64,000 bases of DNA. Source: Halohasta litchfieldiae (GTDB taxonomy: Archaea > Halobacteriota > Halobacteria > Halobacteriales > Haloferacaceae). The notes beneath the pieces were generated by a model. That model had not been told where the DNA came from, did no database searches, and saw only the letters and a list, made by a program, of their open reading frames with translations. This document shows positions 20,919 to 26,470 of the stretch, in pieces; positions within the stretch are counted from its first letter, which is position 1, and each line of letters begins with the position of its first letter. A program made the position numbers and the translations under genes. The stretch is from NCBI RefSeq assembly GCF_002788215.1, contig NZ_CP024845.1, positions 930,001-994,000 of the forward strand, written 5' to 3'.

Positions 20919-20996
20919 ATGAATCATCAACCACTGCGATGGACGGTCGCATCCCGCGAGATGCGAGTTCGCAGTCAGGTGGGTGAGAGCCGATGA
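20919..20996 (+). CDS. 25-residue upstream ORF coupled to the KaiC-like gene
   Basis: An ATG at 20919 opens a frame of 25 codons (starting MNHQPLRWTV) whose TGA stop overlaps the ATG of the next gene as ATGA at 20993-20996. That overlap is the usual sign of translational coupling elsewhere in this window. The peptide is arginine-rich, in contrast to the acidic proteome. It could be a leader peptide, a tiny DNA- or RNA-binding protein, or chance. No homologue is known to me. Confidence 0.35.
   Translation: MNHQPLRWTVASREMRVRSQVGESR
20933..20975 (+). promoter_or_regulatory. Nested stem-loop before the KaiC-like gene
   Basis: Outer arms actgcga (20933-20939) and tcgcagt (20969-20975) enclose inner arms cgcatc (20948-20953) and gatgcg (20960-20965). 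Both pairs are perfectly complementary and share a centre to within three bases. The structure lies inside the 25-codon ORF and ends 18 bases before the ATG at 20993, so it could block or expose that start in the mRNA. Confidence 0.4.
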
Positions 20997-22615
20997 GTGG
21001 CGACTGGTTCGAGGAGGCCATCAGCGAACTCGACGAGGAGGAGTTGGACGACGAGGATCTCAAAGCGTTAGAAGAAAACGGTGAGATCGAGGATCTCGAC
21101 AGCGATAGCGAGACCGAAGATTCTGAGGACGACACCGAAACAGCCGACTCAGACGTTGACACACCAGCAGCGCCGGATGACGAGCCGGCGGCTGCAGAGG
21201 CGACTGACGACGAGTCAGCAGCCGATGTGTTCGGGTTCTCGGCTGATGAGCCCGATGAGGCCGATGCCGCCGGGGATGAAACCGAGGCAACGCACGAGTC
21301 GACTGACGAGTTCGGATTCGGTGCCGACGATCCCGAACTGGAAGTAAACGAGGTCGACGGGAGCAACGACACGGTCGACCAACAGGAACCGACTGAACCG
21401 ACCGATGACCCAGTCGACACGGCCGACGGAGAAGCCACCAGCAGTGCCGACGAGTTCGACGCTGACAGTACGGACGAACAGCCGTCTGTACCCCCATCCG
21501 AGACTGACGATAACAGTACGGATGACGCAGGCATCGATCAGACGGAGACAGACACAGTGGCGTCGGATGCTGTCGACGCCGGCGAGCAGGCTGGGCCATC
21601 GACGGCCCAATCCCCCGAGGAGTTCGGCTTCAGTATCGAAGATGAAGGCGACGAGACGGCCACCTCAACCGACCCACCACCAGATACCAACGAGGCGTCG
21701 ACGCCGGAGCCTGATTCGGAGCCATCGGACGATCCGTTCGGCTTCGGCAACAGTGGCGGCGGAAGTAGCGGTGGTAGCGGTGGTGGCGGGATGGGAGACT
21801 CTGATGACGACGATTTCGGCTTCGGTGGGTTCAGCGGCGGCGGTGGCGGTGGCGGTGGTGGCGGCGCACCGAGCCCATCGAGCCCCGAGGATTTCGACGA
21901 GGAGAATTTCGAATCTGATATCGACCGGATCGATCTCGGGATCAAGGGACTCGACGAGATGATCCTCGGCGGCGTCCCCGAGCGGTCGCTGATCGGTATC
22001 ATCGGTGGGGCCGGGACCGGGAAAACCACCTTCGCCCTCCAGTTTTTGAACGAAGCCCTCGAAAACGGCGAGCGCGCGGTCTTCATCACGCTCGAACAGA
22101 CCGAAGAGGCCGTGTTGTCGACCGCCGAGGAGAAGGGGTGGCCGTTCCGGGAGTACGCCGACGACAACCAACTCGCAGTCGTCGTCCTCGACCCAGTCGA
22201 GATGGCAAACAGTCTGGCAACGATTCGGAGCGATATCTCGCGGTTGATCCGCGAGTTCGGTGCCTCGCGGCTCGTGCTGGACTCCGTATCCCTGCTTGAG
22301 ATGATGTACGACCATCCAGCCAAGCGACGGAGCGAAGTGTTCGACTTCACGCGCTCGCTCAAAGACGCCGGGGTGACGACACTGCTGACCTCCGAGGCCA
22401 GCGAGGACTCCTCGCATGCCTCTCGCTACGGCGCGGTCGAATACCTCACGGATGCCTTCTTCGTCCTGCGGTACGTCCGGACCTCGAACTTCGAGGAAAC
22501 CCGGCTGGCCATCGAGATCCAGAAGATCCGGGATGCAAACCACTCCCGAGCGACGAAACCCTACGACCTCACCGACGAGGGGATGAGCGTCCACCGACAG
22601 GCCAACATCTTCTGA
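20993..22615 (+). CDS. KaiC/Rad55-like RecA-superfamily ATPase with long acidic N-terminus
   Basis: The C-terminal 230 residues are a KaiC-type ATPase domain: it opens with DRIDLGIKGLDEMILGGVPE, has Walker A GGAGTGKTT at 338-346, the acidic pair after the next strand (TLEQTEE near 366-372) and Walker B RLVLDSVS at 426-433. Such single-domain archaeal proteins act as signalling ATPases or accessory motor and recombination factors. The first 305 residues are disordered, Asp/Glu-rich and carry five copies of [DE]xFGF[GS] near residues 80, 107, 211, 249 and 275, then a linker of ten consecutive glycines. The 540-residue protein is much longer than typical KaiC-like ATPases of 230-280. Function unknown. 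Confidence 0.88.
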   Translation: MSGDWFEEAISELDEEELDDEDLKALEENGEIEDLDSDSETEDSEDDTETADSDVDTPAAPDDEPAAAEATDDESAADVFGFSADEPDEADAAGDETEATHESTDEFGFGADDPELEVNEVDGSNDTVDQQEPTEPTDDPVDTADGEATSSADEFDADSTDEQPSVPPSETDDNSTDDAGIDQTETDTVASDAVDAGEQAGPSTAQSPEEFGFSIEDEGDETATSTDPPPDTNEASTPEPDSEPSDDPFGFGNSGGGSSGGSGGGGMGDSDDDDFGFGGFSGGGGGGGGGGAPSPSSPEDFDEENFESDIDRIDLGIKGLDEMILGGVPERSLIGIIGGAGTGKTTFALQFLNEALENGERAVFITLEQTEEAVLSTAEEKGWPFREYADDNQLAVVVLDPVEMANSLATIRSDISRLIREFGASRLVLDSVSLLEMMYDHPAKRRSEVFDFTRSLKDAGVTTLLTSEASEDSSHASRYGAVEYLTDAFFVLRYVRTSNFEETRLAIEIQKIRDANHSRATKPYDLTDEGMSVHRQANIF

Positions 22616-22678: not shown

Positions 22679-23827
22679 ATGGAGCTATTCGATGACAGCA
22701 TTGTCCCCGAGCACGCACGGGAACGGAAACAGGCGGCTCGGGCGTTTGCGGCCGACGAGATTAGCCCGGTTGCGGCCGACTACCACGCCTCCGGCGACTA
22801 TCCGTGGGACGTCCTAGAGGCTGCAATGGACGAGGGGTTTGTCGCCCAAGAGATCAGCGAGGAGTACGGCGGCGAGGGGTACGACCTCTATCAGCTGTTG
22901 GCAACTGCCGAGGAATTTTTCCGAGCCGACGCTGGCATTGCGCTGACTCTCCAACTGGCCGGGTTCGGCTGTGAGATGATCGAACGCTACGGCTCCGAGT
23001 CACAGAAAGAAGCCTACCTCCGGCCTATCGCAGCCAATGATCAGATCTCTGGATTGGCGGTTTCCGAACCGCAGACAGGATCGGATCTCGCCGGAATGTC
23101 GACTGAAGCGACAAAAGTAGACGGTGGCTACCGACTCAACGGTGAGAAGTACTGGGTCGGTAACGCCGTCGAGGCCGACTGGCTCACCCTCTATGCAAAA
23201 ACGGGTGACCGGGAAGACCGGTACAGTAATTTCTCTATTTTCATAGTCGACACCGACCGCGAGGGATACCATGCCGAACACGTCCCCGAGAAAATCGGCA
23301 TGCGGGCCTCCAAACAGGGCCACATCGTGTTGGATGATTGTTTCGTCCCCGAGGAAGCCCTCATCGGCACCGAGGGTGGCGGCTTCTACATGCTCACGGA
23401 GTTCTTTAATAAAGGCCGAGTGATCGTCGGCGGCCACGGACTGGGTCTGGCGGCGGCGGCCATCGAGGAAGCCGAGGCGTTCGTCCACGAGCGTGAGGCC
23501 TTCGGGCGGACGGTCGACGAGTTTCAGGCCGTCCAGCATACGCTGGCGGATATGCGACTCCAGTTCGAATCTGCCCGAGCGCTCACGTGGCGGGCCTGCC
23601 GGAAGGTCGTCGAGGGCGAGAACCCGGGCTACTGGGCGGCGCTGGCCAAGACACACGCGACCGAGGCGGCGATCTTCTGTGCCGAACAGGGAATGCAGCT
23701 TCACGGCGGGCGGTCGATCTTTGCGGATCGACGCATCTCGCGGGTCTATCGTGACGTGCGGATTCCGGCCATCTATGAAGGGGCCAACGAGATCCAGCGA
23801 AACCTGATCTACCGCCATCGACCGTAG
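22679..23827 (+). CDS. Acyl-CoA dehydrogenase
   Basis: FAD-dependent enzyme that introduces a double bond next to the thioester of an acyl-CoA. The 382-residue length fits. The conserved FAD-contact block SEPQTGSDLAGM and the ending with the catalytic base region YEGANEIQRNLIYR are present, as is the substrate-binding segment FGRTVDEFQAVQHTLADM. Haloarchaea have many paralogues, so chain-length or branched-acid preference cannot be read. No electron-transfer flavoprotein or thiolase genes are close. Confidence 0.93.
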   Translation: MELFDDSIVPEHARERKQAARAFAADEISPVAADYHASGDYPWDVLEAAMDEGFVAQEISEEYGGEGYDLYQLLATAEEFFRADAGIALTLQLAGFGCEMIERYGSESQKEAYLRPIAANDQISGLAVSEPQTGSDLAGMSTEATKVDGGYRLNGEKYWVGNAVEADWLTLYAKTGDREDRYSNFSIFIVDTDREGYHAEHVPEKIGMRASKQGHIVLDDCFVPEEALIGTEGGGFYMLTEFFNKGRVIVGGHGLGLAAAAIEEAEAFVHEREAFGRTVDEFQAVQHTLADMRLQFESARALTWRACRKVVEGENPGYWAALAKTHATEAAIFCAEQGMQLHGGRSIFADRRISRVYRDVRIPAIYEGANEIQRNLIYRHRP

Positions 23828-23849: not shown

Positions 23850-24602
23850 TTAAACCGAGACGTCGGCGACGTTCTGTTTGAGTCGGGTCGTGAGCACGAG
23901 CAGGAACGTAATGAACATGATCGTCAGCACGATACTAATGGACTCGACGAGGGCGGACTGAACCCCGACGAGGACGCCGACCTCGACCGCGCTCGCAGCG
24001 CCTGCGCTGAGGAGGATGGCGATAATGTAGGTCAACATCGTATCGAGGACCGTTCGGCTCGACATTGCGGCTCCTTTGATCCGTGCCGCAAACGAGACGC
24101 CATACAGCGTAAAGCCAATACTCGCGGCCAGCTGGACGACAAGGGTCACGCTATTCAATCCAAGCAGGATGATGATCATGAACTGGATGAAGGCGATGAA
24201 CAGAAACCCCGCCTCGATCCAGCGGATACTCTCGATTGAGATCGGCATCGAGACCCCCCTGTCTTCGGTCTGCTGTGGCGATTCGAAGTACAGTTCCCGC
24301 ATCGCCAGCGCGAAAAAGATAATAACGAACAGCTGGCAGAGCCGCCGGATCGAACCGACGAAGCCGGCGCTGGCCGGAACGATATCCGCCGCCGCGATTA
24401 CCTCGGCAGTGCCTGTCACGGCGTACAACGCGCCGACGATCCCAGCCAGAATGACGTACTCCCACATCTCCGAGTTGATCGTCCGCCGGTTGGAGTTCTG
24501 CATCGTGTAATAGGTCAAACTGATCGAGGCAACGAACAGCAGCATATAGGCCGTCAGCCGAGTGACGATCACAGTCCCTTCCGGATTCTCCAACAGTGTC
24601 AT
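23850..24602 (-). CDS. Seven-helix membrane protein of unknown function, paired with the pseudokinase
   Basis: Beginning at the ATG at 24602 (MTLLENPEGTVIV) the protein has 250 residues and seven hydrophobic segments of about 20 residues, at roughly 10-30, 47-67, 80-100, 130-150, 158-178, 190-212 and 218-238. No retinal-type lysine motif or other known signature is evident in the last helix. Its start overlaps the stop of the upstream kinase-like gene as ATGA, so the two are almost certainly made together. A receptor or membrane anchor for the kinase-like protein is an inference from this coupling. A longer frame upstream lies inside the kinase gene and is not credible. Confidence 0.8.
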   Translation of the reverse strand: MTLLENPEGTVIVTRLTAYMLLFVASISLTYYTMQNSNRRTINSEMWEYVILAGIVGALYAVTGTAEVIAAADIVPASAGFVGSIRRLCQLFVIIFFALAMRELYFESPQQTEDRGVSMPISIESIRWIEAGFLFIAFIQFMIIILLGLNSVTLVVQLAASIGFTLYGVSFAARIKGAAMSSRTVLDTMLTYIIAILLSAGAASAVEVGVLVGVQSALVESISIVLTIMFITFLLVLTTRLKQNVADVSV

Positions 24603-25954
24603 ATTGCCCCCCCGCTGAGTGCCTGTCTGAGTTCGGTCCGGAAATCCTGTACCGTGTTGTAGCGGTAGAGTTTGGACTTCCGGAAACATTTCGCGAGCAC
24701 CGTGTCGACGCCATCCGAAAGCTCGTCGGTAAACTGGCTGGCCGGCGGTGGCTGTTCTTCGACGACCTTCTGCAGCACGACTCCCGGCTGGCCGTCGAAC
24801 GGCAACCGCCCGGTAAGGAGTTCGTAGACAATTAGCCCCAGATGGTAGATATCGGTCGAGGCGTCGACGCCACCGAACTGGTCGGGCTTGACCTGCTCGG
24901 GGGCCGCATACATCGGCGGCACTCCCATCGGCAGCGCCGACAGCTGACAGAGCAACTGCGAGATACCCCAGTTGCTAATCTTGGGATAGGGCCAGACGTT
25001 GCCATCGTAGGTCCGGCTGAAGATCACGTTCCGTGGCGTCAGCCCGCCGTGGATCACACCCGAGCCGTGGGCATGACAGACGGCGTCGACGATGCGGTCG
25101 ATGATCCAGCGAGCCTCTCGATCCGACAGTGAGCCGAGACGGTCGCTGAGCCGTTGGCCCTCCTGATACTCGACGACGAACCACGGCTTTGGGATCGTGC
25201 CGTGGGCGACAACCGGCACGATGGCGTCGTGATCGTCGACTGACTGCCACTCGTTGAGTGTCTCGGTGAACTCAGTGTCGAACTCAGCGGGGGCGCGGTG
25301 TTGAATCTGGGTGAGCAGCGCGGAGTGCGTTCTCTCTCTGTCCGAGTACCGGACCAACCAGAGGTCGACGTGACTCCCCGAGCCGCGGGATTTGATCGGG
25401 TCGAACGCCTCACGTCTGGCCTCGACCGGCGGCGGGGTCGGCGGTGGCTCAGTTGGAGGTCGACCGCGCTCCTCGCGGTCTGGGGGCTCCTCGACGGTCT
25501 CATCGTCCTCGGCGGCAGTGCCGAGTCCCTGATACTCGGAGGCCTCACCGGTGAGCGTCGTCACCGACCCCGAGAGTTCGCGGTCACGGATCGACGCGAT
25601 CAGCTGTTTGTTGTGGACGTCGTCCCGGAGATCGAGATCCTCGATAGCGTCTCTGACGAGCTCTGGATACTCCGCGGCGATGTAACCCAGTGCACGAATA
25701 ATGTCCTCGTGAACCGACTCCGGCTCGCTTTCGAGCAGTGAGGCGAGTGCACGAACGGAGCCAGTCACGGCCTCGGGGTTGGCCGACACGACGAGACCAA
25801 GTGCCCACGACGCCGAGAGCCGGACTGTCTTGTCCGTACTCTCGAAGAGATGGAGAATCCGGTTCAACTCCTTTGAGTCGAACGTCTCAGGCTCTGTGAT
25901 CGCCGCGTTTAGGACCGTCTCTGCGGCCCGTTGTTCTGTCCCCGATCCATCCAT
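24599..25954 (-). CDS. HEAT-repeat protein with a predicted pseudokinase domain
   Basis: Residues 1-125 form helical HEAT-like repeats (SASWALGLVVSANPEAV, DIIRALGYIAAEYPELV). A proline/acidic linker (135-180) leads to a Hanks-type protein kinase fold at 190-445. The fold is clear: FVVEYQEGQRLSDRL, a catalytic-loop position IHGGLTPRN (301-309), APEQ (351-354) and DIYHLGLIVYELLTG (368-382). However the catalytic Asp of HRD is Gly304, the metal-binding Asp of DFG is Asn328 within SNWG, and no VAIK lysine is seen near 205-215. All three key residues are therefore missing, which suggests a scaffold or nucleotide sensor rather than an active kinase. The downstream 7-TM gene is coupled by ATGA. Confidence 0.87.
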   Translation of the reverse strand: MDGSGTEQRAAETVLNAAITEPETFDSKELNRILHLFESTDKTVRLSASWALGLVVSANPEAVTGSVRALASLLESEPESVHEDIIRALGYIAAEYPELVRDAIEDLDLRDDVHNKQLIASIRDRELSGSVTTLTGEASEYQGLGTAAEDDETVEEPPDREERGRPPTEPPPTPPPVEARREAFDPIKSRGSGSHVDLWLVRYSDRERTHSALLTQIQHRAPAEFDTEFTETLNEWQSVDDHDAIVPVVAHGTIPKPWFVVEYQEGQRLSDRLGSLSDREARWIIDRIVDAVCHAHGSGVIHGGLTPRNVIFSRTYDGNVWPYPKISNWGISQLLCQLSALPMGVPPMYAAPEQVKPDQFGGVDASTDIYHLGLIVYELLTGRLPFDGQPGVVLQKVVEEQPPPASQFTDELSDGVDTVLAKCFRKSKLYRYNTVQDFRTELRQALSGGAI

Positions 25955-26179
25955 TATTCTACGTACTTAGTTTTCTACCATATAATTTCTCTGAATAGAG
26001 AGCTACAGCCCGTCAGACGGGAGCCAATCCCGACGCCGCCACCGGCCGAATACACCCGCTTTGTATCGGCTGTCGACAGAGAGAAATACCGCGAATTCGG
26101 AGAGTAGAGAATTCCTAACCAAAGACTAGTGGCCAACTACCACCGAGGATTTACCCGTCTTGAGAGCCAATGGCACAGT

Positions 26180-26470
26180 GTGAAAAAAACCGAGCTTGTT
26201 CACCTGCATGCACTTTTAGTGCTCCTCTCGGAGCGGGTCGTCGACCAAGGAATCGTCGACCGCTCGTATTTCGAGCCCTACGCTGAGCTCGACGTCACGC
26301 CGGTTTCCTTTCGGGCGCGCCGCGACCGCCACGAGGAGGCCGTGCTCCTGTTGGCGGCACTGCTGGCGGCGGCAGTGAGCGACGAGTATGAGCCACCACC
26401 AGATGTCGAGACCATCCGCACCGAATCGGATTCGACGCCGTCGTCTCACTCTTCGGCACCGTCGTCGTAG
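26180..26470 (+). CDS. UPF0058 family protein
   Basis: A 96-residue helical protein of the archaeal UPF0058 family, recognisable from KKTELVHLHALLVLLSERV at the start, the Y-rich middle (YFEPYAELDVTPVSFRARRD) and the hydrophobic helix HEEAVLLLAALLAAA. The GTG at 26180 is chosen because it places the family's usual start right before KKTEL; the frame is open 17 codons further up. Function is unknown. The 225 bases before it are A/T-rich and show no other gene. The C-terminal 30 residues are a Ser/Thr/Pro-rich tail not typical of the family. Confidence 0.8.
   Translation: MKKTELVHLHALLVLLSERVVDQGIVDRSYFEPYAELDVTPVSFRARRDRHEEAVLLLAALLAAAVSDEYEPPPDVETIRTESDSTPSSHSSAPSS

Follow-up and report, generated by a model that had tools for sequence, protein, structure and literature searches.

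Two overlapping genes of Halohasta litchfieldiae encode a soluble pseudokinase with a HEAT/Arm-like region and a seven-transmembrane (7TM) protein of no known family, and, judged from gene trees and gene order across the Halobacteria, this pair moves as one heritable unit. The sequence comparisons leave the functional coupling of the two proteins well supported. We lean, by a modest degree, toward a single membrane-bound complex as their joint product, in which the pseudokinase would be docked on the 7TM protein as a relay or scaffold.

The genes lie in the window, by which we mean the whole 64,000-nucleotide stretch analyzed here, taken from a genome that forms a single contig of 3.33 Mb. The pseudokinase gene (24599..25954, minus strand; an open reading frame with Pfam matches) encodes 451 residues, and the membrane protein gene (23850..24602, minus strand; recognized as an open reading frame and by hydropathy) encodes 250 residues without a family-library match. 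They share an ATGA start/stop overlap at 24599..24602 on the minus strand, exactly as originally predicted. The downstream neighbor, an acyl-CoA dehydrogenase gene (22679-23827, plus strand), is convergent with the pair, and the upstream neighbor, a UPF0058 gene (26129-26470, plus strand), is divergent from it. Because opposite-strand genes flank both sides, the transcription unit comprises, by strand, the two genes that had been predicted to be the sole members of their operon. A TATA-like promoter element of this unit (25980..25986, minus strand) is located ~29 nt ahead of the kinase ATG, in a context (CAGAGAAA.TATAT) that is common to the Halohasta litorea locus L031. Such a distance from box to ATG is the spacing typical of a leaderless haloarchaeal transcript, and it fits a leaderless transcript for the pair. 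Within its own genome, the pseudokinase has one match (E ≤ 0.001), as does the 7TM protein.

Halohasta litorea and Halohasta salina are the closest named relatives at this locus, with membrane-protein identities of 84% and 76%. The window also encodes a KaiC-domain protein (TIGR03880, 1.1e-86; 20993-22615), the N-terminal half of which is long, acidic, glycine-rich, and of low complexity; in the other two Halohasta genomes, a gene resembling it in length and position only directly adjoins the pair. Halohasta salina further carries an MCP-type transducer gene near the pair (L035:3556-5292); the corresponding position of the window showed none.

The 7TM protein displays seven hydrophobic segments on the Kyte-Doolittle scale, the number originally predicted, and the same number is found in 23 of 29 aligned relatives, with six segments in four of them and eight in two. 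In the paired clade, positive charge amounts to 2.5, 3.5, 3.4, and 2.2 in loops 1, 3, and 5 and the C-terminus, and to 0.2-0.3 in the N-terminus and loops 2, 4, and 6. This distribution points to an N-out/C-in orientation, so that topology prediction, which had been proposed as a check, returns seven segments with a cytoplasmic C-terminus from hydropathy and loop charge alone. The best-conserved polar or aromatic positions (W47, R102, E103, T184, D187, and Q243 in window numbering) are mostly situated in cytoplasmic loops or at the cytoplasmic ends of helices rather than within the membrane, with the conserved polar sites of the family falling at the end of TM3, at the start of TM6, and in a C-terminal L.Q motif. 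An AlphaFold2 model of low confidence (pLDDT 44.6) likewise places a helix at each of the seven segments, one helix being interrupted; this model and that of the pseudokinase were each built on a three-sequence alignment of the window protein and two relatives.

No member of the 7TM family could be assigned to a known family. None of the 29 members has a Pfam match above cut-off, and searches of NCBIfam and PADLOC returned no fitting family either, which bears out the earlier statement that the protein lacks a recognized signature. A profile search of the PDB gave two weak matches (E 0.018 and 0.17) that we regard as chance. We also considered whether the protein could be a degenerate opsin. 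None of the 29 members matches the rhodopsin family PF01036 at E ≤ 0.1, alignment of the family to haloarchaeal rhodopsins with hhalign yields a probability of 1%, and the Schiff-base lysine of TM7 is present in 0 of 29 members; we therefore rejected this reading. The same procedure gives at most 0.6% against PF16927, the 7TM domain of histidine kinases, and, together with the missing Pfam match, this led us to reject a derivation from that domain as well. The positive controls for these alignments (paired versus solo members, and split halves of the other two families) reached 99-100%. Homology to known 7TM receptors is thus undetectable, and seven helices alone say little of function. The window genome (G000) itself contains nine HisKA_7TM domains and three rhodopsins, the latter located far from the pair. 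Of 392 genomes drawn from across the phylum, 26 match the 7TM protein, all of them labeled as the window genome's own or as belonging to its family or order.

Among 391 Halobacteria genomes, the single 7TM sequence matches 102 and the 7TM profile 127, a few of these being fragments; the kinase profile matches 122 at 1e-20, a figure that includes unpaired relatives and derives from scoring the best four candidates per genome. From the 102 matched genomes, 60 were taken as wide stretches, picked for family spread before the kinase was examined, and 20 + 14 further regions were added for later questions, so that the resulting 94 loci constitute a non-random sample. Together with the window, these make 95 sources, 79 of which contain a 7TM match, 48 paired and 31 unpaired; pairing was counted from six-frame profile matches, since script-made gene calls may miss or misplace genes. 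The 7TM tree, comprising 77 rows after exclusion of the fragments L086 and L139 (L083 has no match), splits with full support into 27 kinase-less rows and the 50 rows of the window's clade, although a few deep forks are weakly supported and long branches drew a warning from the tree-building program.

Within the window's clade, the pseudokinase is encoded directly upstream in 48 of 50 rows, spanning five families. The two exceptions are L047 and L057; in L047 (G024), the kinase lies ~92 kb away and clusters with the kinases that are paired in related genomes. Frequent separation of the genes in relatives, named in the original prediction as the finding that would speak against it, is hence not what the window's own clade presents, and the proposed search for the pair across Halobacteria was borne out there, but not for the broader 7TM family, which also exists without a kinase (27 of 27 rows of the other clade). 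The genes overlap by start and stop in 36 of 47 scored loci, 14 times by 4 nt, and their spacing does not exceed 10 nt in 41 of the 47, counts that are biased toward short spacings because the possible start closest to the stop was taken; one of the 48 loci has no start. The kinase-less clade (L072, L074-L082, L084, L087, L088, L091-L093, and L100-L105) belongs mainly to family f4 and to genus g37. Genes for UvrA and a universal stress protein are among its neighbors in f4, and L094-L098 are more distant solo members.

The kinase-less clade is what would be expected of a membrane protein with an activity of its own, and it supports the most serious alternative to a signaling complex, to which we give a real though minor chance: the pseudokinase would be the regulatory subunit of a 7TM protein that works as a transporter, channel, or membrane enzyme. 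In family f2 (g26), moreover, the pair is followed by same-strand genes including an ABC-type permease. There is also a bacterial precedent in Mycobacterium, where the pseudokinase domain of MviN, a member of the ActPs3 family, is described as regulating this cell-wall membrane protein by recruiting FhaA to it (PMC12599244). As there, a kinase fold with degraded motifs would serve a multi-helix membrane protein. However, the MviN pseudokinase is reported as fused to the membrane protein and acts in a cell-wall pathway, whereas the archaeal pseudokinase is separate and soluble, carries a HEAT-like region, and has a 7TM partner of no known family; the ActPs3/MviN trait of a single chain bearing both a pseudokinase and membrane helices is absent from the archaeal pair. 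Assignment of the membrane protein to a known transporter family, which had also been named as a potential refutation, did not emerge: Pfam contains no transporter family that matches above cut-off, and sub-threshold matches (Mntp, Cation_efflux, etc.) are isolated, each occurring in 1 of 29 members. The position of the conserved polar residues, mainly at helix ends and in loops and not inside the membrane, likewise argues against transport.

In family f3, the pair is frequently located beside the genes for a sensory rhodopsin II (SRII) and its transducer. Across 15 loci with coordinates, from eight genera, the transducer and kinase genes are arranged head to head, and the sensory-rhodopsin gene follows that of the transducer. 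The best PDB match of the f3 rhodopsin is SRII (2.4e-48; other rhodopsins 7e-33 or weaker), and that of the transducer, which is of the HtrII type and matches MCP, HAMP, and, weakly, Cache, is the SRII transducer. An SRII-type gene is present in 70 of the 146 f3 genomes (at 1e-50), the 7TM gene in 68, and both in 43; in 38 of these 43, the two genes lie no more than 10 kb apart, in all 38 on opposite strands, the exceptions being G164, G418, G365, G116, and G098. This arrangement could indicate that the pair serves the SRII/HtrII phototaxis system as an accessory component, a reading that we nonetheless consider improbable. In f3, 27 genomes have an SRII-type gene without a 7TM match and 25 show the reverse, at least eight of these in the paired clade. 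The pair is kept in L133 and L137, where the SRII-HtrII block is missing as a unit. Outside f3, no linkage between the pair and SRII was seen in the loci examined, and the window contains no rhodopsin or transducer match. Since the pair and the SRII block are lost separately, we rejected an obligate role of the pair in SRII phototaxis. A 40-residue C-terminal 7TM remnant (L139:8417-8536), a decaying copy of the pair, persists beside intact SRII-HtrII genes. By gene content and order, then, the pair is its own module, often but not always housed beside the SRII photoreceptor in f3. In several f3 genera, a glycerophosphodiester phosphodiesterase gene is convergent to the 7TM gene (L056, L060, L061, L064, L065, L068, L071, and L135).

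The soluble partner combines two regions. Residues 1-106 (25637..25954, minus strand) form an N-terminal HEAT/Arm-like helical repeat region, which is missing from the description in the original prediction; Pfam Arm matches it above cut-off (4.3e-6), HEAT models fall below cut-off, and AlphaFold2 models it as helical with block-mean pLDDT of 63-87, within a whole-protein model averaging 46.1. A protein-kinase-fold domain follows at about residues 192-433 (24656..25381, minus strand; PF00069 2.5e-19, PF07714 3e-11), the nearest PDB relatives of which by profile are PknB/StkP-type kinases (PknB 4.6e-43). No membrane segment was seen in the kinase proteins by 19-residue hydropathy, the highest value being 1.0 in the window protein and 1.47 over 22 aligned relatives. 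PADLOC matches to the anti-phage systems PD-T4-6 and MAD6 span the kinase domain alone, as expected of any Hanks-type kinase, and the 7TM protein has none; an anti-phage kinase was rejected on these grounds.

The catalytic motifs of this domain are degraded in the window protein and in its relatives. HRD reads HGG at residues 302-304 (25043..25051, minus strand), with loss of the catalytic aspartate, and DFG reads NWG at residues 328-330 (24965..24973, minus strand). The three catalytic positions of the window protein, i.e., the VAIK lysine, the HRD aspartate, and the DFG aspartate, are occupied by T, G, and N. Across the 48 paired kinases, window included, the HRD aspartate is present in none, whereas the HRD histidine, the APE glutamate, and the helix-F aspartate are each present in all 48. 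This suggests a maintained scaffold rather than a decaying gene, and the paired kinase-like protein is confirmed by its sequence as a pseudokinase, in keeping with the original prediction. The DFG aspartate is retained in 15 of 48 and a lysine in the VAIK column, where the alignment is less certain, in 6 of 48, so those members may still bind nucleotide. These remnants could also speak for an enzyme that has kept catalytic activity through some unusual mechanism, such as the alternative nucleotide transfer of SelO-type pseudokinases. Given the universal loss of the HRD aspartate, a glycine loop that is unconserved across the paired kinases, and the residues at the three catalytic positions in the window, we regard such activity as still more doubtful than an accessory phototaxis role.

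The histories of the two genes point to coupling rather than to chance proximity. In trees built from the same 48 loci, the 7TM protein and the kinase share 38 of 45 splits. Of these, 26 have support in each of the two trees, and wherever a 7TM split is supported, the kinase tree contains no supported split that conflicts with it. Their pairwise distances correlate with r = 0.92, compared to a maximum of 0.17 over 500 permutations. Correlated distances would also be expected from a shared species history; shared departures from taxonomy would not, and both trees contain two of these: two g37 genomes (family f3) cluster with f1, and three g17 genomes (f1) cluster with f10. Joint transfer of both genes accounts best for these departures. 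The genes are also lost together. In the f3 genomes L127-L129, both are missing from an otherwise kept block in which the SRII genes are present; in L127 and L129, the transducer gene is directly adjoined by the genes that come next in the block (318 and 236 aa), and L128 is arranged likewise in mirror order. That the two genes are mere neighbors with no functional link, as their single-copy, patchy occurrence and the short gene spacings common in compact archaeal genomes might allow, is therefore strongly disfavored, given adjacency in 48 of 50 rows across families, concordant trees, and joint transfer and loss.

For the complex that we favor, the following arrangement can be proposed. The 7TM protein would sit N-out/C-in in the membrane, and the soluble HEAT-pseudokinase would dock on its cytoplasmic face, where the loops and the C-terminus carry positive charge and most of the conserved polar 7TM positions lie. 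The pseudokinase would not carry out canonical phosphorylation and would instead act as a conformational relay or scaffold. A change sensed by the 7TM protein at or in the membrane could then alter the state of the docked pseudokinase, which the HEAT region may pass on by recruiting a further partner. Physical contact, relay role, sensory input, and HEAT partner are all steps that we infer. Against a complex of this kind stand the 27 related 7TM proteins with no adjoining kinase, which suggest that the membrane protein can work, possibly as an enzyme or transporter, on its own; the patchy occurrence of the pair, the 7TM profile reaching no further than its 127 genomes; and the confinement of the photoreceptor linkage to one family. 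Of the sensory or transport-control complex originally proposed, the coupling has thus gained support from adjacency and from the lack of a transporter family, but its sensory or transport role stays inferential. The divergent linkage to SRII and transducer genes in f3 leans toward sensing, although no rhodopsin lies nearby in the window, nor does every other occurrence of the pair have one. A more far-reaching version, which we hold to be rather unlikely and slightly less probable than a transporter with a regulatory subunit, is a receptor system of a new kind: a non-opsin, non-HisKA 7TM family that would signal via a docked HEAT-pseudokinase instead of an enzyme or a methyl-accepting transducer, passed between haloarchaea as a single cassette and possibly tuning the neighboring SRII in f3.

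Several known systems resemble parts of the pair. Like SRII-HtrII, which directly adjoins it in f3, the pair comprises a 7TM protein, predicted to be N-out/C-in, encoded with a signaling partner; unlike SRII, the archaeal 7TM protein has neither detectable sequence similarity to rhodopsins nor a TM7 lysine, and its partner is not an MCP. Haloarchaeal opsin-related proteins are described as 7TM proteins without the retinal lysine, often encoded beside signaling genes (PMC4915679). As presented in that account, they are recognizable type-1 opsin homologs, often with MCP transducers, whereas the present family matches no opsin profile. PF16927 likewise contributes seven helices heading archaeal signaling proteins, but the 7TM protein shows no similarity to it and is unfused to a histidine kinase. 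The bacterial Hanks-type kinases PknB, PrkC, and StkP, although profile comparison makes them the closest relatives of the kinase domain with a solved structure, are active enzymes, in contrast to the archaeal paired kinases, all 48 of which are without the catalytic aspartate.

The seven bacterial pseudokinase families are described from bacteria, with no archaeal one in the available parts of that description (PMC12599244), and in the titles and abstract openings of the open-license literature searched, no description of a pseudokinase paired with a 7TM protein was found. The new element here is the 7TM family without a known assignment; a membrane-linked pseudokinase is already known, and the archaeal protein is set beside the bacterial pseudokinase families by description alone. 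Most work on pseudokinases concerns eukaryotes, with bacteria a recent addition, and the pair provides a compact archaeal case. Kept together through transfer and loss, it offers a small setting in which to test how a dead kinase may relay the signal of a membrane protein, and it adds uncharacterized genes beside the SRII/HtrII photoreceptor.

Two further groups of haloarchaeal kinases were encountered. Six f3 loci (L107-L112) carry second-copy pseudokinases of the same family without an adjoining 7TM gene; no common partner was seen in their gene listings by eye, and all six cluster with the paired kinase of L066 in the f3 part of the kinase tree. The other group is a cluster of active-looking kinases (L113, G062), which have the same fold, come from the same class of organisms, and are matched by the same profile as the paired proteins, but differ from them in having kept HLDIKPEN, ALK, and ADWG; one of these kinases is 1096 aa long and has an N-terminal hydrophobic region.
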